Assembly (NCBI RefSeq): GCF_035975855.1
Contig: NZ_CP109055.1
Span: 3,100,001 to 3,164,000 of the forward strand
DNA: 64,000 nt
Direction of reading: 5' to 3'
DNA from: Streptomyces sp. NBC_01304
Lineage (GTDB): Bacteria; Actinomycetota; Actinomycetes; Streptomycetales; Streptomycetaceae
Made by a program: the position numbers and the translations under genes
The notes under the pieces: model-generated
Told to the model about the DNA's origin: nothing
What the model saw: the letters and a program-made list of their open reading frames with translations, nothing else
Databases searched by the model: none
Shown here: one piece after another, positions 38,520 through 61,765 of the stretch
Position numbering within the stretch: the stretch's first letter is position 1
How the letters are laid out: the number at the start of each line of letters is the position of its first letter

Positions 38520-38622
38520 CCTGCTGTCCTTTGACAACGAAGCCAGTCGCTTTGTCATCCAATCGAAGCGGTTGACAGCGAATCCAGTCGTTTCGGCTCT
38601 TTGACAGCGAACCTAGTCGTGT
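38520..38622. repeat. Transposon left end: target duplication and three TnsB-type repeats
   Basis: CCTGC (38520-38524) precedes the terminal TGT at 38525. Three direct copies of a ~21-bp motif TTGACA(A/G)CGAA(N3)AGTCG follow at 38531-38551, 38572-38592 and 38601-38621. Several spaced, same-direction sites at an end are characteristic of Tn7-like transposase binding. The third copy overlaps the region just before tnsA, so transposase binding could also repress tnsA. Confidence 0.9.
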
Positions 38623-38648
38623 GGGGTGCGCAAGGCTGGGGGTGTCGT

Positions 38649-39464
38649 ATGGCCGTACCTGCTGGGGTGGACGGGGCCATGCCGTACGTCGAGGTGTCGT
38701 GTCGGCAGGGCGTAGGTGCGCGTCGTCGGCGTCCGCTGCTGGACTGCGTCACGGTCAGGTTCGAGGATGTTCGTCCGGTGCGGCCGTTTCGGTGGCCGAA
38801 GGGTGGGTGTCATTTCCCGGGCTGGTACTGGGCGGCGACGACCGGGCAGCATGTCGGCTTCGAGTCGTGGCTGGAGCGGGACAGGCTCGTGCTCATGGAT
38901 TTCGACCCTGCCGTGGTGGGGATCGCCTCCCAGCCGTTCTGGTTGCACTGGCACGACGGGACGCGTGCGCGTCGGCATGCCCCGGACTTCTTCGTGCGCC
39001 GCGCGGACGGTTCGGCCGTGGTCGTCGATGTGCGCGCCGACGATCAGATCGCGCCGCGCGATGCCGCGGCGTTCGAGGTGACGCGCAGTGCCTGCACCGA
39101 GGCCGGGTGGGGCTTCGAGCGGGTGGGGAGGCCGGAGCCGGTGTTGCTGGCGAACGTGCGGTGGTTGTCGCGCTACCGTCACCCCCGCTGTCGGCAGGAT
39201 CCGGTCGCGGCCCGGCTGATGGAGGTTCTTGCGCACCCTGGGCCGCTCTTGGCCGGGGCCGGCAAAGCTGGCGACTGGCTCGCGACACTGCCCGTGTTGT
39301 TCCACCTGCTGTGGCGGCAAGAGCTGGCCGCCGTGAGGTTGGCGGTCGAGCTGATGGGCCCACACACGGTCGTGCGCCTGGCCGGTGGGGTGCCTAATGA
39401 CCGAGGAGCGGCGGCGGGCTCCGCCGACGGCCCGGATCGCAGAATTCCCCAAGAAGGCTGCTGA
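38649..39464 (+). CDS. tnsA: TnsA-like transposon endonuclease
   Basis: 271 residues, close to the 273 of Tn7 TnsA. The restriction-endonuclease-like core has Glu 72 (GFESWLERDRLVLMDFDP), Asp 113 (RRHAPDFFVRRADG) and Asp 127-x-Arg 129 (VVVDVRADD), matching the spacing of the E, D and Q-x-K residues of Tn7 TnsA. TnsA cuts the 5' ends during cut-and-paste transposition. The ATG at 38649 follows GGGGGTG. The C-terminal ~22 residues overlap the tnsB-like start by 68 nt and look unlike a folded tail, so a late frameshift is possible. Confidence 0.85.
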   Translation: MAVPAGVDGAMPYVEVSCRQGVGARRRRPLLDCVTVRFEDVRPVRPFRWPKGGCHFPGWYWAATTGQHVGFESWLERDRLVLMDFDPAVVGIASQPFWLHWHDGTRARRHAPDFFVRRADGSAVVVDVRADDQIAPRDAAAFEVTRSACTEAGWGFERVGRPEPVLLANVRWLSRYRHPRCRQDPVAARLMEVLAHPGPLLAGAGKAGDWLATLPVLFHLLWRQELAAVRLAVELMGPHTVVRLAGGVPNDRGAAAGSADGPDRRIPQEGC

Positions 39465-39597
39465 CCAGGCCCGTTGGTGGGAGGGGCACATCCTGGAGGT
39501 GCTGCACGGTTTACCGCCGGACCAGTCGAGCAGATCAGCATGCCGTACACGGCCCTCTGCGTCAGGCGTTCCCGGGGCTTCTTCCACGCCCTTGTAG
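39397..39597 (+). pseudogene. Truncated TnsB-like transposase gene (N-terminus only)
   Basis: The frame opens MTEERRRAPPTARIAEFPKK and continues AADQARWWEGHILEVLHGLP, which resembles the beginnings of actinobacterial Tn7-like DDE (TnsB/Mu-type) transposases. After about residue 43 the sequence turns to arginine/serine-rich filler and stops within 67 residues; a full TnsB is about 700. Everything after about 39,530 appears lost by deletion. The similarity is from memory and the breakpoint is approximate. Confidence 0.6.
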
Positions 39598-39930
39598 GTG
39601 GCGGCGCCGCCTCTGGTCCCCATGAGCCCCCCAAAAAAATGGTCGGGTCTCGGCTCCCCGCCGCCTTCGCCGCTTCTTGCTGAGCCGATCTCGCGACCCG
39701 CGCCGCCGCCGAAGCCGACAGCCGGGATGATCTTGCCTCTCGGGAATGTCAACTGCGACTTCGCGGCGAGCTGCCAGTCCTGTCCCAGATCCCCGGGGAG
39801 CCTCGCGCGCGGGCCTCCCACCAACAGGTGAAGGGAGGAGCAAAATGACAAGAACCGGAGAGCGGGACAGTATCTTGGGGCCAGTCTTTCGGGCTGCTGC
39901 CTTGGGCCGAGATCCTGGGGAGAGGGTGCT
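39598..39930. other. Non-coding scar between tnsB remnant and cargo
   Basis: No convincing gene on either strand. Open minus-strand frames exist but show no family resemblance and are probably GC shadow or a decayed gene. A run of seven A follows a run of C at about 39,639-39,646. This is presumably the join left when tnsB and tnsC were deleted. Confidence 0.45.
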
Positions 39931-40281
39931 GTGGTGGGTGTGTCGGTCGAGCTGGCCACATGCACACCGCGCCATCTGGTGGCGCGGGTCACCGGCGACA
40001 TGGACTACTCGACCGATCGGGTATTGCGTGCCCGGCTCACCGATCTGATCGGCCACAGCACCCGCATGATCGTGCTGGACCTGTCGGGGGTTTCGTTCTG
40101 CGACTCCGCCGGGTTGAGTGTGCTGCTCGCAGCACACAGACAGACAGAGGCCAAGGGGACCACGCTTGCCCTGGCGTGTGTGCCCCAGTCGATGCGGTTT
40201 GTCCTCGAGATGACCGGCACGCACCAAATCCTGCGCATCTTCGAAACCGTCGCCGACGCAGAAACCTCACTCGGCGGCTAA
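39931..40281 (+). CDS. STAS-domain anti-sigma factor antagonist
   Basis: 116 residues filled by one STAS domain: ELATCTPRHLVARVTGDMDY, then MIVLDLSGVSFCDSAGLSVL with the Ser of the DSAGL motif that partner kinases phosphorylate. Such SpoIIAA/RsbV-like proteins release sigma factors by binding HATPase anti-sigma factors. The GTG at 39931 follows GGGGAGAGGGTGCT. It is likely paired functionally with the HATPase and MEDS-STAS genes 0.7-2 kb away within the same transposon. Confidence 0.85.
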   Translation: MVGVSVELATCTPRHLVARVTGDMDYSTDRVLRARLTDLIGHSTRMIVLDLSGVSFCDSAGLSVLLAAHRQTEAKGTTLALACVPQSMRFVLEMTGTHQILRIFETVADAETSLGG

Positions 40282-40646
40282 CGCGTCGAGGCGGAACGGG
40301 CGGGAGGGCGGCCGTCATCACTGGGCGAACCGCGAAGGACACTGTCGCTGCAGCCCCCGCCGACGACCGCAAGTTCCACAAGCGCACGCACACTCAGGCC
40401 GGCTTCCGCTGGGTGCCGCAAGGGCTGGTCGAGATGGAGAATGTACTCATTTCGCCGTCCGACCCGGTGCCGCTCCAGGTAGCCGGCCTGCTCGAGGTCG
40501 CCGATGACGATCTGCACAGTCCGCTCGGTGATCTCGCAGGCGGCGGCGACGGAACGCAATCGTGCATTCGGCGCTCGGGCAAGTGCGAGCAGCACCCTGG
40601 CATGACTGGTCACGAACGCCCACTGTCGGTCTCGCCGGCGGTGCAT
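40278..40646 (-). CDS. Winged-helix transcriptional regulator (MarR-like)
   Basis: 122 residues from the ATG at 40646 (GAGGGCG before it). The core is a winged helix: HARVLLALARAPNARLRSVA, AACEITERTVQIVIGDLEQA and GYLERHRVGRRNEYIL. A start further upstream at 40670 (GTG) is also possible. The C-terminal tail is Arg/Ser-rich. Its stop region overlaps the convergent STAS gene end by 4 bp. Ligand and targets are unknown. Confidence 0.8.
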   Translation of the reverse strand: MHRRRDRQWAFVTSHARVLLALARAPNARLRSVAAACEITERTVQIVIGDLEQAGYLERHRVGRRNEYILHLDQPLRHPAEAGLSVRALVELAVVGGGCSDSVLRGSPSDDGRPPARSASTR

Positions 40647-40938
40647 CGCCCTCAGTGCCTCTCCACCCACTCCGCTCTCTGGATGTCACAACTACCCGGT
40701 GTTGAGCGCCGAAAACCCGGCCGCGCTCAGATGATCCGGGTCAACGGCTGTTCACGCCGTCGCTACCCTGGCGCTAGAACGTCCACATCGGCGAACCGCG
40801 CGAGGCGAGCAGTCGGGGCCGTCTCGCACGCAGTTCATGGGTCAGGCCCGGGGGCTGGGATCTGCTGATACCACGAAGGGATAGTGCGGGACGATTCCCG
40901 CGCCTGGCTGGAGGTGTAGCGAGGCCGCCCGGCGGGTG

Positions 40939-41364
40939 TCACCGGTTCCATCGCATCGCGAAGACGACTGTGGTGCCGACAGCTTTGGGGATAACGGTGA
41001 GGTCGTCGGTGATCAGGCGTGCCAGCCATAGCCCTTGGCCCGCACCGTTGATGCCGACAGCGAGGTCGGGTATGGCCTCGACCGTGAAACCGGGGCCTCG
41101 ATCGCTGATCCGGCAGCGCAGTTCGTGACAGTGTGCGCGGGTCAAGGTCAGCAGGCCGTGTCCGCCGCCGTGCTGGACCACGTTGCCGGCCACGGCGTCC
41201 ATGGCCACCACGAAGTCACCTCGCCGCTGCTCGGGCAAACCAACCAAGGACGCGTGTCCCTCGACCAACACCCGCAAGCGAGGAACATCCCTGGCCGCGA
41301 AAGGAACGCTGAGGAGAACTTCCTCAACACCTTGCTGTTGACCGCTGTATGCGTCGAAGATCAT
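40939..41364 (-). CDS. HATPase anti-sigma-type regulatory protein
   Basis: 141 residues. An RsbW-like ATPase fold: LRVLVEGHASLVGLPEQRRG, the N-box DFVVAMDAVAGNVVQHGGG, ISDRGPGF and GINGAGQGLWLARLITDDL as G-boxes. The ATG at 41364 overlaps the stop of the MEDS-STAS gene (ATGA), so the two proteins are made together. It would act as kinase or anti-sigma partner for STAS proteins. The cognate sigma factor is not obvious, since SigK here has its own zinc-type anti-sigma factor. Confidence 0.85.
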   Translation of the reverse strand: MIFDAYSGQQQGVEEVLLSVPFAARDVPRLRVLVEGHASLVGLPEQRRGDFVVAMDAVAGNVVQHGGGHGLLTLTRAHCHELRCRISDRGPGFTVEAIPDLAVGINGAGQGLWLARLITDDLTVIPKAVGTTVVFAMRWNR

Positions 41365-42245
41365 GACCCTTTCACCTGGGCGACGTCGATAACTGCGGGA
41401 TCTGCACCGAGACGCCGAAGCACGAGGGCGACGCTGTCCGTACAGCGGACCCGCACCGGTCGGTGCGCCGAGGTGCAGTCCATCATCCGTATCAGTTCCC
41501 TCGCGCACTCCACGCCCAGGAACACCACCCCGCACAGGTCGATGGTCAGTCCCGTGCGCGTGGCAGGTGAGCGAGCAGCTTCGGCCAACACATGGGTGAA
41601 CTGTTCGCGCGTGGCCAGGTCCACTTCCCCGGCCAGCCGCAGGGTGTCGTCAGTCTGCCGGGCCCGCAACTGTCCCAGTGCCGGCAGGAGGTTTTGGGGG
41701 TGCGCCTGGCACATGGCTTCCAGGACCTGTTGAGGGAAGCGGTCCCGCTCGTAGGCGCAGATCTCACTGTAGAGCCCCGTGGTGAACAGGTGCCCTGCCT
41801 GGCGTTCGCGGGCCATCATCACATTCAGATCGGCCTCGAGGTCGGCCACCCATCCCATGTCGATGTAGGTGCGCAGCCCGGTGAAGCCGCGCGCCCGCGC
41901 CGATTCGATCTCCTCGACGATCCGCCGCCACTGCTGAGCGGCGGTGAACGTACGGTCGGGCAGGATGAGTTGGCGCATGCTGTTCAGTTCCAGACGACCG
42001 CTGTCGTACCCCTGAGCCAGCAGCACTCCCGGCACGTCCTTGAGGCGTCGCAGCACGTCGCCGGGGTTCAAACGAGGGTCAGGGAAAACGATGACCTTCT
42101 CCCCGCGAGCCAGACCCGTCCACACGAAGGCCGACAGCACATCCCACCCCTGAAGGTGGTCGTCGTAGCAGAGGAAGGCATGATCGCCGGCCCTCATCTG
42201 CTGCACAGGCAGTGTCCCAGGGTGTTCCGGATCCGAAGCGAGCAT
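41361..42245 (-). CDS. MEDS-STAS sensor protein
   Basis: 294 residues from the ATG at 42245, which follows GGAAGGCG. Residues ~15-175 form a MEDS (DcmR-type) sensory domain: RAGDHAFLCYDDHLQGWDVL, WTGLARGEKVIVFPDP and GFTGLRTYIDMGW. Residues ~200-290 are a STAS-like domain (DDTLRLAGEVDLATREQFTH, LTIDLCGVVFLGVECARELI). MEDS domains sense small organic or redox signals; here one is fused to a partner-switching output and coupled to an HATPase gene. The MEDS ligand cannot be read from sequence. Confidence 0.85.
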   Translation of the reverse strand: MLASDPEHPGTLPVQQMRAGDHAFLCYDDHLQGWDVLSAFVWTGLARGEKVIVFPDPRLNPGDVLRRLKDVPGVLLAQGYDSGRLELNSMRQLILPDRTFTAAQQWRRIVEEIESARARGFTGLRTYIDMGWVADLEADLNVMMARERQAGHLFTTGLYSEICAYERDRFPQQVLEAMCQAHPQNLLPALGQLRARQTDDTLRLAGEVDLATREQFTHVLAEAARSPATRTGLTIDLCGVVFLGVECARELIRMMDCTSAHRPVRVRCTDSVALVLRRLGADPAVIDVAQVKGS

Positions 42246-42362
42246 CGCCTTCCGCTCCCTGCCAAGGCTGGCTGCTGTAACGGGAAAGATACTCGCCGTA
42301 AGGGCAGCGTGAGGGCGGTACAGGAAGGTGGTCGGCAATCGACGCTGGGCCAGGTCCACTTG

Positions 42363-42935
42363 TCACGCGTGCGGGCGATGCTGCTCGATCAGCGTGCGGG
42401 CCATCGCCTGGGCCCGTCGGGCGGCCTCAGTGTCTCCCTCCGCCGCGGAAATGATCGAGCCCTTCATCAGGATGTGCCACGACCGAGCAAAAGAATCCGT
42501 ATCGCGCAAGCCCGCATCTTCGGCCATCGAGCGCACGATGGCCCGGATGTTCTCCAGGTACTGAATGCTCGCCCGGCCCAGCGGGTGCCCCCAGCCCATC
42601 TCCAGCAGGACGTTGATGAACGCACAGGCATCGAAGTCGTCGCGTCGAAACCATTCGTCGAACACATCGAAGACGGCAAGCAGCCGCTCCTCCGGGGTAC
42701 GGCCACGCTCGCGGGCGCCGGCCTCGACCGTCTCCAGCGTCCACCGCTGCTCCCGGCGCGCCAGGAAGGCCAGGACCAGGGCGTCCTTCGACGGAAAGTG
42801 CCGGTAGAGAGTGGCCTTGGCCACCCCGGAACGGGTAATGACCTCCTCCACCCCGACATCGCGGATGCCGCGCTGCGAGAACAACTCGTACGCGGTGCTC
42901 AAGATCCGCTCACGGGGCGGCAGTTCATGCTCCAT
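42363..42935 (-). CDS. TetR-family transcriptional regulator
   Basis: 190 residues. The N-terminal TetR DNA-binding domain is clear (RERILSTAYELFSQRGIRDV, GVEEVITRSGVAKATLYRHF), and the C-terminal ligand domain is helical. The ATG at 42935 has GGAG immediately before it, which is closer than ideal, so expression may be weak or another start used. No divergent target gene adjoins it; the 1.2 kb upstream is non-coding. Confidence 0.88.
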   Translation of the reverse strand: MEHELPPRERILSTAYELFSQRGIRDVGVEEVITRSGVAKATLYRHFPSKDALVLAFLARREQRWTLETVEAGARERGRTPEERLLAVFDVFDEWFRRDDFDACAFINVLLEMGWGHPLGRASIQYLENIRAIVRSMAEDAGLRDTDSFARSWHILMKGSIISAAEGDTEAARRAQAMARTLIEQHRPHA

Positions 42936-43625
42936 CTCCTGTCCAGAATAGACCTGTCCCGCCACGCCAACCGTTGCCAAGATGAGGACGTGCACACAAG
43001 ACAGAGCGGTCTTACTCCCCCGGCAAGACTGCCCCACCGCGCCTGCGCACAACGGCGGCGCATCGGGCGGGCAGGCACACAGGACCGCCCCGCGCTTGTG
43101 CAGCACCACGAAGAACCGCCTGCCAACCCCATAACCCTGGCGGAAAGCGGCACCTGGCGCGAGTGGCCGCCGCGGGAGGTCCGGCCACTCATGCCACCGC
43201 CGGGGATCATCCGGCGAGTGGGGAGTGCCAGCCCGGACTCCCCTCACCGGGCACTCCCCACTCGCCAGACCATCGCCAGCAGGCAGGCGCATGCCCTCGC
43301 GCCGGGGAAGGACGCCCCTACGAAGAAGTGCCGCTGCCAAGTGCGTCCGCATCCACAAGGACGGACAGGACGCACCCACCGTGCTCGCGATCTCCAAGCT
43401 CGCACGGAAGAGACAGGCAAGTCGGCCGCTGAAGCCGGGACCGGACACTGCATGTCGGCCCCCCGCAGGCGTCGGACCGATGCGCGCGCGTGCTCTGTTC
43501 CGGCCGCGTGGCCGTGCAGCTCAGAGCTCGCCACATCAGCTACCCGGACACGGGTATCGGCATCTGGCGAAGGGGTAGTCGGGTGATGACACCCATCACC
43601 CGGCCCAGCCCCCGCCAGGTGGTGT

Positions 43626-43661
43626 GCGGTCGCCGCTGGGATCTCACCCAGCGGCGACCGC
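43626..43661. terminator. Perfect 15-bp hairpin
   Basis: GCGGTCGCCGCTGGG at 43626-43640 pairs without mismatch with 43647-43661 across the loop ATCTCA. Form and stability fit a transcription terminator, though the nearest genes on either strand are 0.45-0.7 kb away. Confidence 0.6.
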
Positions 43662-44041
43662 AAGCGTCGGGAGCTGTCGGCGGTTCCTGACGCAGAAGGT
43701 CCTTCCAGTGCGGGGTACGCGGGATTTCACCCCGCGCTGGAAGGCCAGGCCGAGCACTATGGTGTGGGCCCAGAGGCCGACGTACGTACTCCTAGCGTAG
43801 AACGCGGCGAAGGGGTCGCACAGGGCTGAATTACGGCCAGCTCAGGGCAACTACAGTCAGTCACCGCGCGCTAGACCTCTCCCTGGGTAGGTCACGGTGG
43901 CTGCCTATAGAACCGCCCCGACAACCGGACGGACCTGTGACCTGGGACAGCAGTACCTTCTGTCGGCCGACCGAGGTCCACCTCCTGCCGGTCGAAGAAC
44001 CATAGGAGCGGATGACTCTTCGAGACCGCAAGCAATGTATG

Positions 44042-44068
44042 GCTCGAATACGTAGAAAGTATTCGAGC
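44042..44068 (-). terminator. Hairpin terminator of the fasciclin operon
   Basis: GCTCGAATAC at 44042-44051 pairs perfectly with GTATTCGAGC at 44059-44068 over a 7-nt loop. It lies about 50 bp past the fasciclin lipoprotein stop on the same strand. Confidence 0.6.
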
Positions 44069-44118
44069 GGCTGACCACGGAGTCAGCCTCCACGACCAGC
44101 CGCCCGTAATCCCTGGTG

Positions 44119-44766
44119 TCACATCTTGGGCATCAGAACCGTGTCGACGATGTAGACGGTGGCGTTGGCGGTCGGGACGTTGCCACAGACGACCTTCGAT
44201 GTGTCATTCACCGTGAACGACTCACCGGATCCGGCGGTGGTGAGCTTGCTCTTCTCGAGCGTGTCAAAGGAGCCGTTCTCCAGCTGCTGCGGGGTCAGCT
44301 TCTGGCCCACGACGTGGTAGGTCAGGATCTTGGTGAGGGTGGCCTTGTCGTTGAGGACCTTGTCGAGGTCGGCCTTGGGAATCTTCGCGAAGGCGTCGTT
44401 GGTAGGCGCGAACACCGTGATGTTCTCTGCGCTGTTGAGCGTGTCGACCAGGCCCGCCTTCTTCACGGCGGTGACGAGCGTGGACAGCGCAGGGTTGTTG
44501 GAGGCAGCCGTGGCGACGGGGTCCTTCGCCATACCGTCGAAGCTGCCGGCGCCGTCCTGCGGGACGGAGGCGCAAGCGGGTCCGAACGGTCCGGCCATCG
44601 CGTCCGCGGTGGGGGTCTCCTCGGTCTCGGTGGCGGCCGGCGTCTTGTCCGCCGCCTGGTCGGTGCTGCCCTTGTCGTCGGAGGAGCAGGCGGCCAGCGA
44701 GAGCGGCAGGACGAGCGCGGCGGTGGTGGCCACGGTGAGGCGGCGCAGGCGGAGGGTGGCGTTCAT
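44119..44766 (-). CDS. Fasciclin-domain lipoprotein (MPT83/MPT70-like)
   Basis: 215 residues. A lipoprotein signal with lipobox (LVLPLSLAACSSDD, Cys near residue 27) is followed by a Thr/Glu/Ala linker. One FAS1 domain follows: NNPALSTLVTAVKKAGLVDT, ENITVFAPTNDAFAKIP, ILTYHVVGQKLTPQQLENGS and ending ATVYIVDTVLMPKM. This is the architecture of mycobacterial MPT83, a major SigK-regulated surface protein. The ATG at 44766 follows AAGGAG. It is 83 bp downstream of the molybdo-oxidoreductase and has no promoter of its own of the SigK type, so co-transcription is likely. Confidence 0.9.
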   Translation of the reverse strand: MNATLRLRRLTVATTAALVLPLSLAACSSDDKGSTDQAADKTPAATETEETPTADAMAGPFGPACASVPQDGAGSFDGMAKDPVATAASNNPALSTLVTAVKKAGLVDTLNSAENITVFAPTNDAFAKIPKADLDKVLNDKATLTKILTYHVVGQKLTPQQLENGSFDTLEKSKLTTAGSGESFTVNDTSKVVCGNVPTANATVYIVDTVLMPKM

Positions 44767-44849
44767 GGTGTTCTCCTTGAGCACAGGCCCAGAGGCTGCT
44801 GGGCCTTGGTGTGTTGGGGGTTGTCGGGCGTGGTGGGGGAGCTGTGGGG

Positions 44850-46451
44850 TCAGGTCACGTTGACCACCACCGAGTGCCAGCCGGAGGCGCCGTCCGGGAT
44901 GGTCCGGGTGCGCTTGTCGGTCTGGGTGTAGCCGGTGCGGTCGGTGGCGCGGACCTGGAGGGTGTGGGAGCCGGGGGTGGCGGGCCAGTCCCAGCTCCAT
45001 TGCCGCCAGGTGTCCAGGGGGCCTTCGGTCGCCAGGCGGGTGTCCTGCCAAGGGCCGTCGTCGACGCGGATCTCGACGCGGTCGATGCCCTTGTGCTGGG
45101 CCCACGCCACTCCGGCCACGACGACCGTGCCGGCGTTCGGGCGGGCGAAGGGCTTGGGGGTGTCGATACGGGACTGGGTCTTGATGGGGGCCTCGCGGGC
45201 CCAGTCGCGCTTGACCCAGTACGCGTCGTAGTCGTCGAACGTGGTCAGCTCGATGTCCTGGATCCACTTGCAGGCCGAGACGTAGCCGTACAGGCCGGGT
45301 ACGAGCATCCGGACAGGGAAGCCGTGGTCGAAGGGCAATGGTTCGCCGTTCATGCCGACGGCGAGCATCGCGTCGCGGCCGTCCATGACGGTCTCCACCG
45401 GGGTGCCGATGGTCATCCCGTCGACGGAGCGGGCCACCAACTGGTCGGCGGGCCCGCCCCGTGACGGCGGTCGTACCCCTGCCTCCTCGAGCAGCGCTCT
45501 CAGGGGTACGCCGAGCCAGCGCGCCGAACTCACATAAGGCCCGCCAACCTCATTCGAGACACACGTCATCGTGATGTCCCGCTCGATCAGGTCCCGGCGC
45601 AGAAGGTCCGCGAAGTCCAGGGTGACGGGAGCGTCGACCCCTTTGCCGTGCAGGCGAAGACGCCAGCGATCAGCGTCGAGACGGGGCACGGTCAGCGCGG
45701 TGTCCACACGGTAGAAGTCCCGGTTCGGCGTGGTGAACGGCACTGTTCCCGGCACCTTCACCTGGACACCCCGCGGCAGTTCGGGGGCGGGTGAGGCGGG
45801 TGCGGGAAGGCGGACTGCGGCGCGGGATGCCTCGGCGTCGGCCGCGGTCGTGGCGTTGAGTCGCCGGGCGGCGAAGCCCGCTCCGGTCGAGAAGGCCGCG
45901 ACACCGGCCGTGGCCAGGACGAAGCGCCGTCGGCCGAGGCCCTGGCCGGACGTGTCCGTGGACTCTTCGTCAGCCCCGCCACCGTCTTGCGGGGCTGACG
46001 AAGAGCGAACCAGGCCGGAGAGGAAGTACAGGACCGCGGCCCCGGCGAGCGCTCCGATCAGCGACGGCACCGCGTCCAAGACGCTGGTCGAGTCGGGCCG
46101 GCCGGTAGCGGCAAGCGCCCCGACCACGCCGAACACCAGCACGCCGACCGTGGCAACACGTCGGTGGCGCAGCGCCAACAGGCCCATGGCGAGGGCGAAC
46201 AGGGCCAGTGCCGCGAGGATGCCGAGCTGCAGCACGAGTTTGTCGTTGGTGCCGAACTGGCGGATCGCCCAGTCCTTCACCGCCGACGGGGTGCGGTCGA
46301 TCATCGCCCCGCCGACCGCGGTGACGGGGCCGGCCTCGGGCCGTACGGCCACGGCGACCAGTTCCGCGACGGCCAGGGCCGTGTAGCCGGCCACCAGACC
46401 GCTCAGTGCGGCTGACGCGCCTTTGATCGCTGTGGTTCCTCGTGTGCTCAC
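44850..46451 (-). CDS. Membrane-anchored molybdopterin-dependent oxidoreductase (sulfite-oxidase fold)
   Basis: 533 residues. Residues 1-150 carry about four membrane helices. A twin-arginine-like stretch (LGRRRFVLATAGVAAFSTG, near 175) precedes the sulfite-oxidase-type Mo-binding domain with the Mo-ligand cysteine in TMTCVSNEVGGPYV and later HGFPVRMLVPGLYGYVSACK. A C-terminal dimerisation domain follows (DGPWQDTRLA). The catalytic part should face outward, perhaps repairing oxidised proteins or sulfur compounds. The GTG at 46451 lies only about 8 bases after the -10 box of a SigK-type promoter, so the mRNA may be leaderless. Confidence 0.9.
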   Translation of the reverse strand: MSTRGTTAIKGASAALSGLVAGYTALAVAELVAVAVRPEAGPVTAVGGAMIDRTPSAVKDWAIRQFGTNDKLVLQLGILAALALFALAMGLLALRHRRVATVGVLVFGVVGALAATGRPDSTSVLDAVPSLIGALAGAAVLYFLSGLVRSSSAPQDGGGADEESTDTSGQGLGRRRFVLATAGVAAFSTGAGFAARRLNATTAADAEASRAAVRLPAPASPAPELPRGVQVKVPGTVPFTTPNRDFYRVDTALTVPRLDADRWRLRLHGKGVDAPVTLDFADLLRRDLIERDITMTCVSNEVGGPYVSSARWLGVPLRALLEEAGVRPPSRGGPADQLVARSVDGMTIGTPVETVMDGRDAMLAVGMNGEPLPFDHGFPVRMLVPGLYGYVSACKWIQDIELTTFDDYDAYWVKRDWAREAPIKTQSRIDTPKPFARPNAGTVVVAGVAWAQHKGIDRVEIRVDDGPWQDTRLATEGPLDTWRQWSWDWPATPGSHTLQVRATDRTGYTQTDKRTRTIPDGASGWHSVVVNVT

Positions 46452-46458
46452 ACCCCTG

Positions 46459-46486
46459 ATTCGGAGCTGCTCGGCATCCGGCTTGG
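46459..46486 (-). promoter_or_regulatory. SigK-type promoter of the molybdo-oxidoreductase/fasciclin operon
   Basis: On the minus strand CCAAGC (46486-46481) is followed after 16 nt by CCGAAT (46464-46459), with GCT just before the -10. It matches, from memory, the mycobacterial SigK pattern CCATCC-N16/17-CCGAAT in the -10 and spacing. It is one of five such sites in this cargo. Confidence 0.8.
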
Positions 46487-46542
46487 TCGTTCACCCGATC
46501 GGATCAATAGCGCCTCGGTTCACGCAGGTCACAGCCGCCTCA

Positions 46543-46570
46543 CCAAGCCGCAGCGCGAGCTGCTCCGAAT
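46543..46570 (+). promoter_or_regulatory. SigK-type promoter of the lipid-modification operon
   Basis: CCAAGC (46543-46548), 16-nt spacer, CCGAAT (46565-46570) preceded by GCT. The -35 hexamer is identical to that of the divergent promoter 57 bp away. A start site near 46,577 would give a ~42-nt leader to the FAD oxidoreductase ATG. Confidence 0.8.
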
Positions 46571-46618
46571 GACGGGTGTGAGGGCGAAAGGGCTCTCGCG
46601 CGCGAGCGAAGGGGCGGC

Positions 46619-53485: not shown

Positions 53486-53499
53486 GCCGGGTCGTGCTC

Positions 53500-54243: not shown

Positions 54244-54830
54244 ACGGTCACCCCCAGACAGTCGCGCAGCCGGATCAGTCCGTCACGCAGGCGGGTTTTG
54301 ACGGTGCCCAGCGGCAATGTCAGGAGCTGGGCGACCTCGCGATAGGTCAGGCCCCGGTAGTAGGCGAGGGTCACGGCCTCGCGCTGCAAAGTGGTGAGGG
54401 CGCTCATACATCGGCGTACCCGTTGCTGTTCCAGGCGGGTCTCGACCTGCTCGCTCACCTCGTCGTACGCGGGGACCTGGTCCAGGAGCGCCGCCTTGTG
54501 CTCACGCTCGGCGGCGGCCTGTACGGAGCGCACCCGGTCGACGGCGCGACGGTGGGCCAGCGTCATCACCCAGGTCATCGCGCTTCCCTTCTCGGGCCGG
54601 AACCGGGCGGCGGTGCGCCACACTTCCACCAGGACCTCCTGCGCCACCTCCTCGGACTGCGCCGGATCCCGCAGGACGCTGCGCACCAGGCCGAGGACGG
54701 GCCCGCTGACCGCGTCGTACAGGGCGGCGAACGCATCCTGATCACCTCGGGCCACCTCTGTCAGGCGGGCATTGAGATCAGGCCCCGTCCCAGGCGGCGG
54801 GGTGGCATGGACGTTCTCGGCCGGCCTCAT
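54240..54830 (-). CDS. sigK: ECF sigma factor, SigK-like
   Basis: 196 residues. Region 2: DQDAFAALYDAVSGPVLGLV, DPAQSEEVAQEVLVEVWRTA and RFRPEKGSAMTWVMTLAHRR. Region 4: LTTLQREAVTLAYYRGLTYR and EVAQLLTLPLGTVKTRLRDG. It is paired with an RskA-type anti-sigma factor and surrounded by homologues of the mycobacterial SigK neighbourhood, which supports the SigK assignment. A matching promoter lies ~95 bp upstream, so it is probably autoregulated. The gene name is by analogy. Confidence 0.9.
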   Translation of the reverse strand: MRPAENVHATPPPGTGPDLNARLTEVARGDQDAFAALYDAVSGPVLGLVRSVLRDPAQSEEVAQEVLVEVWRTAARFRPEKGSAMTWVMTLAHRRAVDRVRSVQAAAEREHKAALLDQVPAYDEVSEQVETRLEQQRVRRCMSALTTLQREAVTLAYYRGLTYREVAQLLTLPLGTVKTRLRDGLIRLRDCLGVTV

Positions 54831-54923
54831 GCGGCTGCCTCGTGGACCATCTGGGGGCCTTCCTCGTCACCTGCCGCCCCGGTAAGGGGACGGACACCGG
54901 GGTTGATCGCCTTTGCAAGGGTG

Positions 54924-54951
54924 ATTCGGAGCGGATGCGACCTTGGATTGG
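54924..54951 (-). promoter_or_regulatory. SigK-type autoregulatory promoter of sigK-rskA-phr
   Basis: On the minus strand CCAATC (54951-54946), 16-nt spacer, CCGAAT (54929-54924) preceded by GCT. The start site would be near 54,917, giving a leader of about 87 nt to sigK. Confidence 0.8.
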
Positions 54952-55003
54952 TCCGCCAGGCGAAACCCGGGGCGATCCCCCGAACGGCCCTGCCGCCCCT
55001 TGT

Positions 55004-55705
55004 TCAGTACTCGCGCTGGTGAAGGCCGCCGAACCCGCTGTTGCGCGCCATGACGGCAGGCTCGGGTCCGATTCCGAGCAGCGCGCTCACCACGTCGGCC
55101 GTCAGGCTGTGCCACAGCCGAGCGCGGCGCAGCATCGCATGATCGGCGCCACGGAGCAGGACCATGCTCACGTCGGCGCCCGCAGCGCCTGCACGCGCCG
55201 CCAGCTCCGCGGACGCGCGCGGGTCGGTCACGCGGTCCATCTCGCCGTGCAGCAAGACCACGCGTCGCCCGGCCAGTTGAGCCACCGGCTCACCCGGCGG
55301 ACACCAGGGCGCGAGCCCCACCACTCCCCGTACCGATGGATGCCCGGCCGCCCTCAATGCGGCTCGGCCGCCCATGGAGTGCCCCACCAGGACCGTGGGC
55401 ACGTCGCCGAAGCGCTGCGCCAGCGTGTCCAGCGCCTGCCGGGCATCGCGTACGGGGTCCTCGCAGGCGCCGTTCCAGCCTCGGCAACGGTAGCGCACAC
55501 GCCCCACGACAACCCCGTGTCCCCGGGTGGCCCGGGTGAGCGCGCCGGCGAACGGACGCATCCGCAGAGCGGCGAGACTCCATGGCGGGGGCGCCGCCGT
55601 GCCGATTTCGCGGCCACCGTGCAGCAGCAGCACCGCCGCCGTGGGGCGAGCGGCGCTGTCGCCCATCACCAATGGGGTGCGGGGGTCGTCATCCCATACG
55701 AGCAC
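55004..55705 (-). CDS. Alpha/beta hydrolase (dienelactone-hydrolase-like)
   Basis: 233 residues. Alpha/beta-hydrolase landmarks: AAVLLLHGGREIG (oxyanion region), nucleophile elbow VLVGHSMGGRAALRAAG, catalytic Asp in GEMDRVTDPRASAEL and His in RGADHAMLRRARL. No signal peptide, so cytoplasmic. The GTG at 55705 was chosen because AGGGAG lies five bases upstream and a SigK-type promoter ends ~67 bp before it; the frame extends further upstream but across the promoter. The substrate is unknown; a lipid or peroxidised ester fits the regulon. Confidence 0.85.
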   Translation of the reverse strand: MLVWDDDPRTPLVMGDSAARPTAAVLLLHGGREIGTAAPPPWSLAALRMRPFAGALTRATRGHGVVVGRVRYRCRGWNGACEDPVRDARQALDTLAQRFGDVPTVLVGHSMGGRAALRAAGHPSVRGVVGLAPWCPPGEPVAQLAGRRVVLLHGEMDRVTDPRASAELAARAGAAGADVSMVLLRGADHAMLRRARLWHSLTADVVSALLGIGPEPAVMARNSGFGGLHQREY

Positions 55706-55771
55706 GTGTACTCCCTGGCCTGTGCTGTGCCTGAACTGGCCGGCCTCGCTGACGAGAAGCCACCGCGATCT

Positions 55772-55799
55772 ATTCGGAGCCGGAGCCGTTACGGATGGG
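55772..55799 (-). promoter_or_regulatory. SigK-type promoter of the alpha/beta hydrolase
   Basis: On the minus strand CCCATC (55799-55794), 16-nt spacer, CCGAAT (55777-55772) preceded by GCT. Shifting the -35 by one base gives CCATCC, the mycobacterial SigK -35 as remembered, at 15-nt spacing. Confidence 0.78.
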
Positions 55800-55838
55800 T
55801 CGCCCCCAGCCGTTCTCCCACGGCATCGCCCCGGATGA

Positions 55839-55866
55839 CCAATCCCTTCCGGCATCGGCTCCGAAT
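55839..55866 (+). promoter_or_regulatory. SigK-type promoter of the peroxiredoxin
   Basis: CCAATC (55839-55844), 16-nt spacer, CCGAAT (55861-55866) preceded by GCT. It is back-to-back with the hydrolase promoter, 39 bp apart, and gives a leader of about 106 nt. Confidence 0.8.
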
Positions 55867-55978
55867 CCCAAGGGGCACGCGGCTGCCGTGGCTGCATGAT
55901 CCCCCCCCGGCCTTGTCTGGTGTGACCTGGAATGCCCTCAACCATGCTCCCTCCTACTTGATCCGACTGGAGCTGCCC

Positions 55979-56464
55979 ATGGCCTCGTTCCCTGAACCCG
56001 GCGAGCACGTCCCCGATTTCTCCCTTCCGGGCGGCCGGCTCACCGAGGGTCATTTCCTGCGGCACGACTACGAGCTGTGCTCTCAGCGGGGGCGGCCGCT
56101 CGTCCTGGCCTTCTATCCAGGGGATGGCACACCCGTCTGCACCAGGCAGTTGTGCTCCTACTCCCACGCGTTGGACGGGCTCAGCGACCTCGGCGCGGAG
56201 GTCTGGGCGATCAGCCCGCAGGACGTGAGCAGTCACGAGGCATTCGCGCGGCGGCACGACCTGCGCATGCCCCTGCTCGCGGACACCGATCTCGTGGTGG
56301 CTCGCATGTTCGGCATCGCCCTGCCCGGACTCGGCTTACGGCGGTCGGTGTTCCTGATCGCCGCGGACGGCACTCTCCGCTGGAAGCATGTCTCCTGGGT
56401 GGGCGCCACGTTCCAGTCGGTGCACAAACTGAAGGGCCGCATCGCCGCCCTCACCGAACACTGA
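55979..56464 (+). CDS. Peroxiredoxin (AhpC/TSA, BCP-like)
   Basis: 161 residues in the thioredoxin fold: GEHVPDFSLPGGRLTEGHFL, then LVLAFYPGDGTPVCTRQLCS. The peroxidatic cysteine sits in the PVCT context and a second cysteine five residues later could resolve it. RSVFLIAADGTLRWKHVSWV follows. It reduces hydroperoxides in the cytoplasm. The ATG at 55979 follows GGAG. Its SigK-type promoter ties it to the oxidative side of the regulon. Confidence 0.9.
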   Translation: MASFPEPGEHVPDFSLPGGRLTEGHFLRHDYELCSQRGRPLVLAFYPGDGTPVCTRQLCSYSHALDGLSDLGAEVWAISPQDVSSHEAFARRHDLRMPLLADTDLVVARMFGIALPGLGLRRSVFLIAADGTLRWKHVSWVGATFQSVHKLKGRIAALTEH

Positions 56465-56818
56465 TCGCCCGGGTGGCGTAGCGGGCCCGCCCCGTGCCCA
56501 TGTCGGCTCACGGCGTCCGCTGCGGCCATCATCACCGCGTTCACCTGGGCTTTCTGCGTGGACTCCGGAAGCACAGGACGACTCCTCACCCCCAGGTTGC
56601 GCAAAACGGGATGGTTTACGTGGTTTGCTGCGGCCTGCGCATTCACTGCGCGGTGCATCTCCGACCGGCGAGGGCCTCCTGCCCTCGTGGAAGCCGCCCG
56701 GACACGCTCGTGTCCCGCCCGCTGGGTCGATCACCCCACTCGTTGAACTCTCCGCAGCCGCAGCACGGCCGAAGTCGTGCTGCCCTGACGCGAGTTCACG
56801 GTTCGAGAGGATCTCCCC
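56465..56818. other. Intergenic region between the SigK block and the DUF4331 module
   Basis: No gene supported. No CCGAAT-type promoter was found here, so the DUF4331-TPR-NicO genes probably answer to another sigma factor. Confidence 0.55.
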
Positions 56819-58390
56819 TTGAAGCTCCCTGCCGCGCGGCCACGCTCCCGCCGCGCCGTCGAGCACACGCTGCTCACCCTCGGGGCCGGCGCACTGGCCA
56901 CCGGCCTGGCCGCCCTGACGCTCGCGCCCACCAGCAGTGTGGCCTCGAGCCACCGCGAGGCACCCGCGGTCGCCGGGGACCCGCGAGTGGACAACACCGA
57001 CGTCTACGCCTTCACCAGCCCCGACCATGCCGACACCGTGACGCTCGTCGCCAACTGGATCCCGTTCCAGGAGCCCGACGGCGGCCCGAACTTCTACGCC
57101 TTCGCCGACGACGCCCGCTACCACATCAAGATCGACAACACCGGTGACGGAAAGGCCGACGTCACCTACACCTGGCGTTTCCGCAACGAGATCAGAGACG
57201 CGGACGGCCAGTTCCTCTACAACACCGGGCCGGTCCGCTCGCTGAAGGACCCCAACCTCAACTTCCGCCAGGTGTACGACCTCACCGTCACTGACGCCCG
57301 CGGCACCCGCACCCTGCTGCGCGGCGCGCCCGCGGCTCCCTCCCGCACCGGGCAGGCGTCCATGCCCGACTACGCCTCGTTGCGCGACGAGGCCGTACGG
57401 TCCGTGCCGGGCGGCGGCCAGGTATTCGTCGGGCAGGCGGAGGACCCGTTCTTCGGCGACCTGCGGGTCTTCGACCTGCTGTACGGCGGCGATCTGAGCA
57501 AGCGCGGCGAGGACACCCTCGCCGGCTACAACGTCAACTCGGTTGCCCTGCAAATCCCCAAGAAGCAGCTGGCCTTGAAGAACAACGCGGCCCGCAACCC
57601 CGTGATCGGTGTCTGGTCGACCACCGAACGACGCGGAGCCGGCGTGACCGACAGCCGCGCCGAGCAGGGCGCCGACTGGCGCCAGGTCTCCCGGCTCGGC
57701 AACCCGCTGGTCAACGAAGTCGTCGTACCGCTGAAGTACAAGGACGCCTTCAACACCATCTCGCCCGACCAGGACCGCACGGTCAAGCCAGTCGTCGACA
57801 AGGTCTACGACCCGATCCTGCCCAAACTGGTCAACAAGGTGTACGGAGTGCCCGCTCCCAAGGCCCCGCGCAACGACATCGCTGAGATCTATCTGACCGG
57901 TGTCTGCAAGGCGTGCGGCCCGGTCAAGGCGGACCTCAACGCCCACCGGCTGAACAAGGACGCGCTGCCGCGCCAGATCGTGCCGGCCGAGGAGCTGCGC
58001 CTGAACATGATGGTTCCGCCGGCCGAGGACCCGGAGCGCCTCGGTGTACTCGCCGGCGACCTGGGCGGGTTCCCCAACGGCCGGCGCCTTGGCGACGATG
58101 TCATCGACATCTCGCTGCAGGCCGTGATGGGCGCGGCCCAGACCGGCGAGCTGGTCGAGGCGCTGGAGGACGGCGACGAGGTCGATGCCAACGACGCCGA
58201 GTTCAGCAGCAGCTTCCCCTACCTGGCGCTGCCGCACGGTGGCGATGGTGACGGCGCTCGAGCGGCCGGCGTAGTCGAGCGTTCTTCGGCGGAACTGGAA
58301 GCTTCCAGCAGCGTTGCGCTCGGGGCAGCGGGTGTCGCGATGCTCGGTGCCGGCGGCCTCAGCAGGTACCGGCGCCGCCCCGTCGCCTGA
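56819..58390 (+). CDS. DUF4331 domain secreted protein
   Basis: 523 residues from a TTG at 56819 preceded by GAGAGGATCTCC. A Sec/Tat-like signal (HTLLTLGAGALATGLAALTL) precedes a DUF4331 domain starting SSHREAPAVAGDPRVDNTDV. That opening continues YAFTSPDHADTVTLVANWIP. The C-terminus has a hydrophobic stretch and basic tail (VALGAAGVAMLGAGGLSRYR) suggesting membrane anchoring. The function is unknown; the conserved opening (SSHREAP) is a family hallmark. It precedes TPR and NicO genes on the same strand. Confidence 0.88.
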   Translation: MKLPAARPRSRRAVEHTLLTLGAGALATGLAALTLAPTSSVASSHREAPAVAGDPRVDNTDVYAFTSPDHADTVTLVANWIPFQEPDGGPNFYAFADDARYHIKIDNTGDGKADVTYTWRFRNEIRDADGQFLYNTGPVRSLKDPNLNFRQVYDLTVTDARGTRTLLRGAPAAPSRTGQASMPDYASLRDEAVRSVPGGGQVFVGQAEDPFFGDLRVFDLLYGGDLSKRGEDTLAGYNVNSVALQIPKKQLALKNNAARNPVIGVWSTTERRGAGVTDSRAEQGADWRQVSRLGNPLVNEVVVPLKYKDAFNTISPDQDRTVKPVVDKVYDPILPKLVNKVYGVPAPKAPRNDIAEIYLTGVCKACGPVKADLNAHRLNKDALPRQIVPAEELRLNMMVPPAEDPERLGVLAGDLGGFPNGRRLGDDVIDISLQAVMGAAQTGELVEALEDGDEVDANDAEFSSSFPYLALPHGGDGDGARAAGVVERSSAELEASSSVALGAAGVAMLGAGGLSRYRRRPVA

Positions 58391-58423
58391 CGCAGCCATC
58401 CGGCCTGGCCGAATCCGCTCTTC

Positions 58424-58453
58424 GGGCGGGCAGATCTGTGGATCTGCCCGCCC
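58424..58453 (+). terminator. Perfect 13-bp hairpin between DUF4331 and TPR genes
   Basis: GGGCGGGCAGATC at 58424-58436 pairs perfectly with 58441-58453 across a 4-nt loop. It starts 34 bp after the DUF4331 stop and ends 34 bp before the TPR start, so it may attenuate read-through into the downstream genes. Confidence 0.8.
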
Positions 58454-58487
58454 GGGTGCCGGCCCGCAACCCTCTTCTCGGAGGCCC

Positions 58488-59837
58488 GTGTTGAACCGAC
58501 CCAGCCTTGTGCGCCGTCCCCGTGCGGGCGTCCGCCTCCGCAATGCGGCGGCGGTCCTCGCTCTGGCTGCCGCTCTGTTCACAGCCGGAGCTGTGGTGCT
58601 GGATCCGCTCGGCGCCCCTGGCCTGCCGGACGACTTCGCTGCGCCTTCGCGCACGGAGGGCCCTGGCGGTTCCGGTTCCCTCGAAGCCCTGCGTCAACGG
58701 GCACGTGAACTCCCACGTGACCCCTCGGCCTGGGCCCGTCTGGGCATGGCCCACGTGGAGCGGGCCCGTGTCTCCGCGGATCCCGCGAACTACGCCGCTG
58801 CGGAAGACGCGCTGCGCAAGTCGTTGGCCCTGCAGCCGCACGGCAACTACACGGCCGAGACCGGCATGGGCGCCCTGGCCGCGGCGCGTCATGACTTTCC
58901 CCGGGCGCTGACCTGGGCCCGCGCAGCGGTCACCAGCAACGCATACAGCGCTCCCGCGCACGGGGTGCTCGCTGATGCCTACACGCAACTGGGCCGATAC
59001 GAGGAGGCGTTCGCCGCCGTCCAGCGCATGAGCGACCTGCGCCCGGACGCATCGTCCTTGGCCAGGGCCTCCTACGCGTGGGAACTGCGCGGCGATGCAC
59101 CCCGGGCCCGTGCACTGATGAACCGGTCATTGCGCGAGGGCGCCGGTGACGCGGAGACGGTTTTCGCACGGACGCATCTCGCCTCGCTGGCACAGGACTC
59201 GGGCGACCATCGCCGTGCGCTGCGTGAAGCCGAGGAAGGACTGCGCGTTGCGCCCCGCGACGCCGGTCTACTGGAGGCCCGCGCCCGAGCGCGAGCCGCA
59301 CTCGGCGACACCGATGGCGCGGTCGCCGACTACACCGCAGCCATCGCGATCGTCCCGCTGCCGCACTTCCTCATCGGCCTCGGTGAACTCCAAGAGGCGC
59401 TCGGACACCGGGAGCAGGCGCAAACACAGTACGCGTTGCTGCGAGCTCAGCAACGCCTCCTACGTGCCGGCGGCTCCCCACCCGACGTGGACGACATCCT
59501 GTTCGAGGCCGACCACGGGCGGCCCGCCCGAGCCGTCGCCCAATGCCGCACGACGCTCACGTCCCGGCCCTTCCTCGCTGTCCACGACGCTTGCGCCTGG
59601 GCCCTGCACCAGGCGGGCAAGGACAGCGAAGCGTTGCACCACGCAGATGAAGCACTCGCCCTCGGTACACGCAGTGCCCTCTTCCACTATCACCGAGCGA
59701 TGATCCACCGCTCGCTGGGCAACCTACCCGGCGCCCGCGCGGACCTCAGGCGAGCTCTTGGGATCGACGCCCGTTTCCATCCGTTGCACGGGCCCGCGGC
59801 CCGCACCGCACTCAGCCGAATCGACAGCAACCGATGA
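58488..59837 (+). CDS. TPR-repeat membrane-anchored protein
   Basis: 449 residues from a GTG at 58488 after TCGGAGG. A single N-terminal hydrophobic segment (AAAVLALAAALFTAGAVVL) anchors or exports it. The rest is helical repeats of TPR type (HGVLADAYTQLGRYEEAFAA, SALFHYHRAMIHRSLGNLPG). TPRs mediate protein contacts. It is coupled by ATGA to the NicO transporter gene, and sits between that and the DUF4331 gene, so a three-component envelope system is likely. Confidence 0.85.
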   Translation: MLNRPSLVRRPRAGVRLRNAAAVLALAAALFTAGAVVLDPLGAPGLPDDFAAPSRTEGPGGSGSLEALRQRARELPRDPSAWARLGMAHVERARVSADPANYAAAEDALRKSLALQPHGNYTAETGMGALAAARHDFPRALTWARAAVTSNAYSAPAHGVLADAYTQLGRYEEAFAAVQRMSDLRPDASSLARASYAWELRGDAPRARALMNRSLREGAGDAETVFARTHLASLAQDSGDHRRALREAEEGLRVAPRDAGLLEARARARAALGDTDGAVADYTAAIAIVPLPHFLIGLGELQEALGHREQAQTQYALLRAQQRLLRAGGSPPDVDDILFEADHGRPARAVAQCRTTLTSRPFLAVHDACAWALHQAGKDSEALHHADEALALGTRSALFHYHRAMIHRSLGNLPGARADLRRALGIDARFHPLHGPAARTALSRIDSNR

Positions 59838-61456
59838 ACCTCATGCTCCGCCGTACTCTGCCCGTCGGCACCCTGGCGTTCCTTGCCCTGGCCCTGGCCG
59901 GCGCACCTGCTGCCGAGGCCCACCCGCTGGGAAACTTCACGGTCAACCACCACACCGGGCTGACCCTGCGCCCCGACCGTATCGACGCCGTCATCATCAC
60001 CGACCACGCCGAAATCGCCGCCGCCCAGGAGCAGACCCTGGTGGACACCGATCACGACGGCGACGTCACGACAAGCGAACGCAGAGCCCACGCCCGCACC
60101 GCATGCGCGGTGCTCGCCACTCAACTGCGCGTGGCCCAGAGAGGTGTTCCCGTCACCTGGAAGAGCACCGATACCCGCTTCCAGTACCTGCCCGGCGAAG
60201 CCGGACTGCCCACCAGCAGGCTGACCTGCACCCTCACCAGCCCCGCACGGTTGACTAAGCCCGCGCAGCTGAACGTCCGCACCACATACGACACACGACG
60301 CCTCGGCTGGCATGAACTCACAGCCCGCGGACTGGGGATCTCGCTCTCCCGGTCCGACGTACCCGCCACCTCGCCCACGGACGAACTGCGCAGCTACCCA
60401 CAAGACCCGTTGGCCACCCCACTGGACCAGCGCACCGCAACCCTCCACACCCAACCGGGCCCGAGCACCACACCAGGGCAAGCCTCTGCTCCGGCCCCCG
60501 GAACGGGCTGGTTCAGCCCTCTCCTGGACAGAATCTCCAGCACCTTCAACTCCGCAGTCGGAAGCCGCGAACTCACCTTCTCCGTCGGACTCCTGGCACT
60601 GCTCCTTTCCCTCGTCCTCGGCGCCTCCCACGCCCTCATGCCCGGTCACGGCAAGACCATCATGGCCGCCTACCTCGCAGGACGAAGGGGAACTCCCCGG
60701 GACGCCCTCACGGTGGGCGCCACTGTCACCATCACCCACACGGCAGGGGTCCTGCTCCTCGGATTGGCTCTTCCCCTGGCTACGACGCTCGCCGGTGAAA
60801 CCGTGCTCGCCTGGCTCGGCCTTGCCAGCGGCCTGCTCGTCACGGGCATCGGCGTGTGGCTCCTACACTCCGCGGTCCTGCGGCGCCCCACACACCAGCA
60901 CCACCACCATCACGGCCACTCGCACGATGGCCCGGGCCACACCCACCACGGACACGCCCATAGCCACCATCCGATCCCCGCAACTCCCGACACCACGATC
61001 CCGCAAAGCCGTCAACCAGCCTCGCGCACCCGCCAAAAACGAAGCATCGCCGTACTACCACCGGCACTCGCCCCATCACCGTTTCCGTCTCCTCGGCCGA
61101 GCCCACCCCGCCAACCGCACAGGCACCGTGCGGGGACCATCGGACTGGGCATCGCCGGCGGCCTGGTCCCCAGCCCCTCGGCCCTGGTCGTCCTCCTCGG
61201 AGCCGTGGCGCTGGGCAGAACCGCCTTCGGCGTACTCCTGGTGATCGGATACGGACTCGGCATGGCCGCCACACTCACCGCGGCCGGCCTCCTCCTCGTA
61301 CGCCTCCGCGACCGCATCAAAGCGCACACCCGCACCACGAAGCCCCGCTGGGCCGGTTGGCGCACACTCGCCCGACTTGGCCCCCTTGCAACCTCAACCC
61401 TCGTACTCATCGTCGGACTGGGCCTGATCGCCAGATCATCCTTCGGTCCTTGGTGA
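59834..61456 (+). CDS. NicO-family nickel/cobalt transporter with His-rich loop
   Basis: 540 residues. A signal-like start (FLALALAGAPAAEAHPLGNF) opens a long external domain. Membrane helices follow from about residue 250, containing the NicO motif LGASHALMPGHGKTIMAAYL and VTITHTAGVLLLGL. A histidine-rich loop (HQHHHHHGHSHDGPGHTHHG) after about residue 355 is typical of RcnA-like Ni/Co exporters. A second helical block follows (GLVPSPSALVVLLGAVALG). It is the last cargo gene, ending ~150 bp before the transposon right end. Confidence 0.88.
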   Translation: MNLMLRRTLPVGTLAFLALALAGAPAAEAHPLGNFTVNHHTGLTLRPDRIDAVIITDHAEIAAAQEQTLVDTDHDGDVTTSERRAHARTACAVLATQLRVAQRGVPVTWKSTDTRFQYLPGEAGLPTSRLTCTLTSPARLTKPAQLNVRTTYDTRRLGWHELTARGLGISLSRSDVPATSPTDELRSYPQDPLATPLDQRTATLHTQPGPSTTPGQASAPAPGTGWFSPLLDRISSTFNSAVGSRELTFSVGLLALLLSLVLGASHALMPGHGKTIMAAYLAGRRGTPRDALTVGATVTITHTAGVLLLGLALPLATTLAGETVLAWLGLASGLLVTGIGVWLLHSAVLRRPTHQHHHHHGHSHDGPGHTHHGHAHSHHPIPATPDTTIPQSRQPASRTRQKRSIAVLPPALAPSPFPSPRPSPPRQPHRHRAGTIGLGIAGGLVPSPSALVVLLGAVALGRTAFGVLLVIGYGLGMAATLTAAGLLLVRLRDRIKAHTRTTKPRWAGWRTLARLGPLATSTLVLIVGLGLIARSSFGPW

Positions 61457-61765
61457 CGCCGAGGTGAGCCTGACTGCACGCGGGCCCGTCCCGGGACCTA
61501 AGCGGCCCATCTGGACGCCAGACGCCAAGAGATTGGCTCCCCGTTGACATCCAATCCAGTCGCCCCAGGTCAGCACCATGCAGGCGACTAAGTTCGTTGT
61601 CAAAGGACACCTGCCGTGGTGAGATCCCGCCCACCTCGGCACGAAGAGGGCTCGTCCCAGACGGGCGGCCCCCATAGGGACTGCGATGGCGATCCAAGTG
61701 CCACACCAGCGTCACGGCTCGCCCGTCGTCCCCCGCGCCGCTTGCCCGGCCGCCATGATGGAGAC
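61457..61765. other. Transposon right end and adjoining intergenic DNA
   Basis: No gene. Bases to 61,609 belong to the transposon end region; 61,610 onward is host-element DNA that lay next to 38,519 before insertion. Confidence 0.7.
61544..61614. repeat. Transposon right end with target duplication
   Basis: The terminal repeat in inverted orientation covers 61583-61609 and ends ACA at 61609, followed by the duplicated CCTGC (61610-61614). A further copy, TTGACATCCAATCCAGTCG, starts at 61544 but points the same way as the left-end repeats, that is, away from what a simple right end would show. Confidence 0.9.

Follow-up and report, generated by a model that had tools for sequence, protein, structure and literature searches.

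A Tn7-like insertion with paired ends and a 5-bp target duplication, lacking most of its core genes, in Streptomyces sp. NBC_01304

Ends, core genes and cargo of the element

The analysed stretch of 64,000 nucleotides of Streptomyces sp. NBC_01304 (hereafter the window) carries a Tn7-like insertion, the features of which are compiled in Table 1. The left junction (38520-38541) reads CCTGC followed by TGTCCTTTGACAACGAA, and the right junction (61593-61614) reads TTCGTTGTCAAAGGACA followed by CCTGC. The identical inverted 17-bp ends at 38525-38541 and 61593-61609, the TGT/ACA tips and the flanking CCTGC copies described in the first-pass annotation were all recovered upon direct re-reading. Since two random 5-mers from the window agree with a probability of 0.0022, the CCTGC pair is unlikely to be due to chance. 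The 17-mer occurs twice in the whole 10.99-Mb genome, once per orientation, and a search of the genome allowing up to two mismatches yielded no further copies (reversed control: 0); by this measure, the element is present in a single copy. The several transposase sites previously ascribed to the ends are also borne out as sequence matches, with four putative TnsB-type sites on the left and two on the right. In Benler et al. (PMC8649781), Tn7-like transposons are described with arrays of TnsB sites at their ends and with the roles of their genes, and 6,549 such elements were delimited with median lengths of 14-29 kb, so that a length of 23 kb is ordinary by these figures; further background is given by Faure et al. 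(PMC10293859).

Table 1 Features of the element and its surroundings, and loci assigned to target classes B and C.
Feature	Coordinates	Strand	Basis or content
MarR-type wHTH gene, upstream region is the target	37961..38353	-	Pfam
Class A att-like site (conserved target), external to the element	38415..38511		75-89% identical stretches elsewhere
Target duplication CCTGC, left copy	38520..38524		Read directly
Left end	38525..38619	+	Terminal repeat of 17 bp (38525-38541); four matches to TnsB-type sites
Putative TnsB-type sites, left	38530-38549, 38551-38570 (weak), 38571-38590, 38600-38619		Sequence match
tnsA (TnsA_like_Actin, 271 aa)	38649..39464	+	NF033179, PF08722
tnsB remnant, first ~41 codons, in frame	39397..39521	+	tblastn and alignment to L011, L010, L012, L017
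Cargo, 22.0 kb, in place of the rest of tnsB-tnsC-tniQ	39522..61536		Pfam annotation
Cargo, left sub-region	39931..43448
STAS	39931-40281	+	Pfam
MarR-type wHTH	40278-40670	-	Pfam
HATPase	40939-41535	-	Pfam
MEDS	41361-42359	-	Pfam
TetR	42363-43448	-	Pfam
Cargo, central block	44119..54830		Pfam: fasciclin, molybdopterin oxidoreductase, FAD amine oxidase, DUF1365, two CMAS, DUF1295, photolyase, RskA anti-sigma, ECF sigma (SigK-type)
Cargo, right sub-region	54842..61456
Peroxiredoxin	54842-56464	+	Pfam
Alpha/beta hydrolase	55004-56257	-	Pfam
DUF4331	56819-58390	+	Pfam
TPR	58314-59837	+	Pfam
NicO-type transporter	59834-61456	+	Pfam
Right end	61537..61609	-	Terminal repeat of 17 bp (61593-61609); two matches to TnsB-type sites
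Putative TnsB-type sites, right	61585-61604	-	Sequence match
	61543-61562	+	Sequence match
Target duplication CCTGC, right copy	61610..61614		Read directly
Class B loci			L016, L018-L020, L022, L023, L029-L031, L033-L035, L037, L038, L041, L043, L046, L087
Class C loci			L040, L042, L045, L051, L059, L065, L082, L084

The first gene inside the left end is tnsA, which scored 300 bits against NCBIfam NF033179 (cut-off 110; scored on the longer ORF 38601-39464), lies above the PF08722 cut-off as well and encodes a protein 83% identical over 247 residues to TnsA of the Streptomyces fulvoviolaceus element (locus L011). At the nucleotide level, the window matches L011 with 85% identity over 38415-39521 and 86% over the 73 bp of the right end (61537-61609), with no other substantial match; at the left end, identity to the corresponding ends of L010 and L011 is about 87%. 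Thus, homology to the core is lost at 39521, roughly 41 codons past the start of tnsB, and is not regained before the right end. Inside the element, tnsB is absent beyond these codons, tnsC gave no match and tniQ gave nothing more than 23 residues overlapping the right end (E 0.022). The element is a real Tn7-like insertion with exact ends and a 5-bp duplication, belonging to a family whose core is recognisable, as first proposed, but a gutted one: three of four core genes are missing, and the description as complete could not be upheld. Because of this loss, the element is likely unable to transpose on its own. A search of the window against Rfam at the gathering threshold gave no match.

Other TnsB and TnsC matches in the same genome are only 41-43% identical. 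A distant TnsABC set (37%, 43% and 41% identity) lies near one chromosome end (C1:47-51 kb), and TnsB and TnsC matches with identical scores lie near the other (C1:10.608-10.611 Mb), which fits terminal repeats. Judging from its sequence divergence (37-43% identity), this system would not be expected to serve the ends in the window.

The tnsA reading frame is open and extends about 27 residues beyond the usual stop. Its dN/dS values relative to L010-L012 are 0.35-0.42, compared to 0.26-0.43 for intact copies at similar distance relative to L017, and there is no clear sign of decay. Since these values fall within the range of intact copies, they do not date the loss of the other genes, and dN/dS, which we had considered as a clock for it, was set aside as not decisive. 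This leaves room for a working non-autonomous element that would be mobilised in trans whenever cognate TnsB, TnsC and TniQ are present. The well-matched sites at both ends and an open tnsA with dN/dS below 1 are consistent with such an element, but we consider it improbable, as this genome has no cognate tnsB or tnsC, holds a single copy of the element and has a tnsA that runs past the usual stop.

In an alignment of 80 TnsA sequences of the family, residues E76, D78 and D113 are invariant, and 77 of the sequences have Arg at the position that would correspond to the catalytic Lys of Tn7 TnsA. A PDB sequence search with TnsA returned one chance-level match (E 0.73).

The cargo, which comprises stress and metabolic genes, has a GC content of 0.66-0.71, similar to the host, and none of its DNA matches any of the loci of 79 relatives. 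At least a partial match to its sigma/anti-sigma/photolyase block is found in 387 of 392 congeneric genomes, and the genome itself has a second SigK/RskA-photolyase-lipid cluster with 77% identity at C1:725555-728187. Clusters related to the 44119..54830 block are also present in G002 and G346, the latter largely colinear. This arrangement presumably resembles the SigK-RskA locus of mycobacteria and the light-stress clusters of Rhodobacter. Plasmid records with similarity to parts of the element number 18; the matching parts are single cargo genes or gene pairs, together with three short stretches, and no record covers 80% of it.

Related elements and the target site

A scan of one genome per species yielded 79 related loci from the best 80 of 97. 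Among these, some of which are cut by contig ends, tnsB was detected in 71, tnsC in 67 and tniQ in 58, with 55 loci having all three. In L011, tnsA-tnsB-tnsC-tniQ fill an element of 4.5 kb, with Pfam matches to a Mu-type transposase C-terminus and TniB, and with TniQ below its cut-off; L012 measures 7.2 kb. An exact 5-bp duplication was found in six of 11 tested end pairs (L010, L011, L012, L014, L071 and L072) and not in the other five (L015, L032, L036, L063 and L073), for two of which, L032 and L036, the wrong left tip was used. Some relatives carry extra DNA: the 10.8-kb element L014, which matches all core genes (tnsB and tnsC each as two tblastn pieces), carries metabolic ORFs, among them PhzF and amidohydrolase, in the interval from tniQ to the right end, and in a relative from S. 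scabiei (L017/G295) the right-end match lies about 12.4 kb from the left end.

The approximately 95 bp to the left of the element, upstream of the wHTH gene, are conserved in many genomes, mostly without an element. The distance from the class A motif ACGTTGACATG in this stretch to the tip is 56-59 bp in eight of nine class A relatives (58 bp in L014), 66 bp in L013 and 72 bp in the window. In L010 and L012, the tip directly follows GGCGAAT(C/G)C. The unoccupied sites L108, L116 and L256 have a similar extension of 15 bp, with one CCTG(C/T) as its last bases, and for this reason the CCTGC in the window looks like native target. Sequence resembling a left or right transposon end lies next to the motif in L099, L107, L110 and L125, which marks the site as a hot spot.

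An island bounded by the tyrosine integrase gene (36417-37556) was considered and set aside, since the integrase lies outside the element ends. Between this gene and the wHTH gene, a hairpin-like stretch (37897-37951) is shared by many genomes with 84-100% identity across 33-55 bp and has a second copy 112 kb away (C1:3249588-3249642). On the other side, a short conserved ORF (61698-62203) recurs in many genomes, in some of them twice, and most of the matches listed stop at 62203, as if there were a different join beyond.

For the comparison with an empty site, in which 38519 would join 61610 with one CCTGC, 295 genomes were searched flank by flank, and both flanks together were found in none among the matches listed; the joined query gave no significant match in 209 genomes. 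Unoccupied left halves of the site are present in many genomes. Only G057 aligns past the join, by 16 bp, with a right-hand score reached by 1.4-2.1% of random stretches; as this is the best of 27 matching genomes, the p of 0.014-0.02 is not significant. A tblastx synteny scan was too noisy for judging the flanks.

Assembly of the element

The ends and the duplication prove just one thing, namely that both ends were inserted as a pair. They do not prove joint entry of the interior, because DNA between them can later be lost or gained, and since the family inserts repeatedly at this site, the matching duplication argues less strongly here for a single event. We consider it very unlikely that left and right ends stem from two separate insertions at the hot site and were fused by a deletion. 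The repeated hits at the site in the four loci named above, the fact that such hits at one point would give the same 5 bp and the locus L230 with its two TnsA genes about 12 kb apart are compatible with this scenario, but the 17-bp ends in the window are identical and thereby closer to each other than those of L010-L012, and the unusual insertion point makes two independent hits exactly there less likely.

In our preferred explanation, which we hold to be moderately probable, a Tn7-like transposon of the TnsA_like type, now with both ends, the 5-bp duplication and tnsA and without tnsB-tnsC-tniQ, most likely bore its cargo when it arrived near the usual promoter-proximal site, and the three genes were deleted later. 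The order of events, as we infer it, would be the following: TnsA and TnsB excised the element from a donor and joined it here, with TniQ directing the insertion to a point about 15 bp beyond the usual one; the 22-kb cargo originally lay between tniQ and the right end; and one deletion from about codon 42 of tnsB into the left edge of the cargo then disabled the element. Renewed movement would be expected only if cognate TnsB, TnsC and TniQ were supplied from outside. The cargo between tniQ and the right end in some relatives is a precedent for this explanation. The right junction itself is silent on the history, because cargo-bearing relatives keep the same right homology of about 70 bp; an argument for an originally cargo-free element, based on the tniQ tail, was dropped, as the cargo-bearing L014 and L015 keep this same right end. 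The following observations speak against the preferred explanation: insertion is shifted by 15 bp relative to the closest relatives; the host-like GC content of the cargo, the lack of clear decay in tnsA and the absence of a significant empty site with both flanks among the genomes searched give it no backing; and no second genome with the tnsA-cargo fusion was found among the matches listed for 392 congeneric genomes, so that the cargo has never been seen to move.

Alternatively, an ordinary element may have arrived, and its tnsB-tniQ interior may later have been exchanged in situ for 22 kb of host-type DNA, in which case the cargo never moved with the transposon. The cargo is indeed typical Streptomyces DNA, as judged from the wide occurrence of the sigma/photolyase block and its copy elsewhere in the genome, and the tnsA-cargo junction, among the matches listed, is common to no other genome. 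On the other hand, this course of events needs a replacement rather than one deletion, cargo adjoining the right end is the usual arrangement in L014, and no genome exceeds 77% identity over the block among the matches listed. We thus regard the replacement as possible but unlikely. For the last-mentioned reason, no donor of the cargo is known among the sampled genomes.

The earlier statement that everything between the ends moved together did not find support: among the matches listed for the 392 congeneric genomes, none crosses the tns/cargo junction, none spans the cargo through the right end, and no significant empty site was obtained. Nevertheless, joint movement of the cargo with the element is likely. 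The notion of a complete mobile unit is to be corrected to that of an element likely without the means to move, and its 23 kb should therefore not be counted as demonstrated horizontal transfer.

Targets of the family and comparison with known systems

Motifs were counted in the 400 bp upstream of tnsA in the 79 loci, with 146 control stretches, each of 400 bp, taken from these loci. The class A motif was found in nine loci, the class B motif (TCTCGATGTCGAGATAAC) in 18, the class C motif (CAACGATATATCGG) in eight and a fourth palindrome in two, leaving 42 loci without a motif, of which seven offer under 260 bp of upstream sequence. The A, B and C motifs occurred 0 times in the control stretches and the fourth palindrome once; because these very loci had served for choosing the motifs, the counts are a description rather than an independent test. 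The tip lies 39-41 bp beyond the motif in 16 of the 18 class B loci and 35-40 bp beyond it in six of the eight class C loci, and was unrecognised in the rest. Where the divergent neighbour was examined, it is an aconitase-type ORF in class B (15 of 15 loci, out of 18) and a PadR-type ORF in class C (seven of seven loci, out of eight), with Pfam run on one of each. At class A sites, the neighbour is a wHTH gene in the window and L010 and a shared DUF317 gene in L013-L015, L017 and L049 (Pfam on two).

These results raise the idea, to which we give about an even chance, that the target selectors of this Streptomyces branch of Tn7-like elements read promoter or operator DNA, with sub-lineages inserting about 40 or 57 bp past a conserved operator-like motif that lies upstream of aconitase, padR or wHTH/DUF317 genes. 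If true, housekeeping promoters, rather than gene 3' ends or tRNAs, would be the safe harbour of these elements. In the open-licence PMC literature, we found no report on aconitase- or padR-side targets of Tn7-like elements in Streptomyces. This by-product on targeting may be more important than the element itself: the family represents several natural, differently targeted Tn7-like systems for Streptomyces, and the conserved, intergenic sites upstream of aconitase and padR genes and of class A are candidate insertion sites in these hard-to-engineer bacteria.

Tn7 of Escherichia coli has TGT/ACA tips, several TnsB sites per end, a 5-bp duplication and a TnsA-type endonuclease, and its target is the 3' end of glmS. 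The element in the window is like Tn7 in its tips, in the several TnsB-type sites per end, in the duplication and in its TnsA-type gene. It differs in the loss of core genes and in its target upstream of a regulator gene, and the TnsA proteins of its family differ in mostly having Arg at the putative position of the active-site Lys. With L011, as a representative of the NF033179 elements, it shares tnsA (83% at the amino acid level), both ends, the 5-bp duplication and the class A target, but unlike L011 it lacks tnsB past about 41 codons, tnsC and tniQ, carries 22 kb of other genes and is inserted 15 bp beyond the usual point. L014 and L017/G295 resemble it as elements of the family with extra DNA, located in L014 between tniQ and the right end; in contrast to the window, L014 has matches to all core genes, and its cargo is unrelated.
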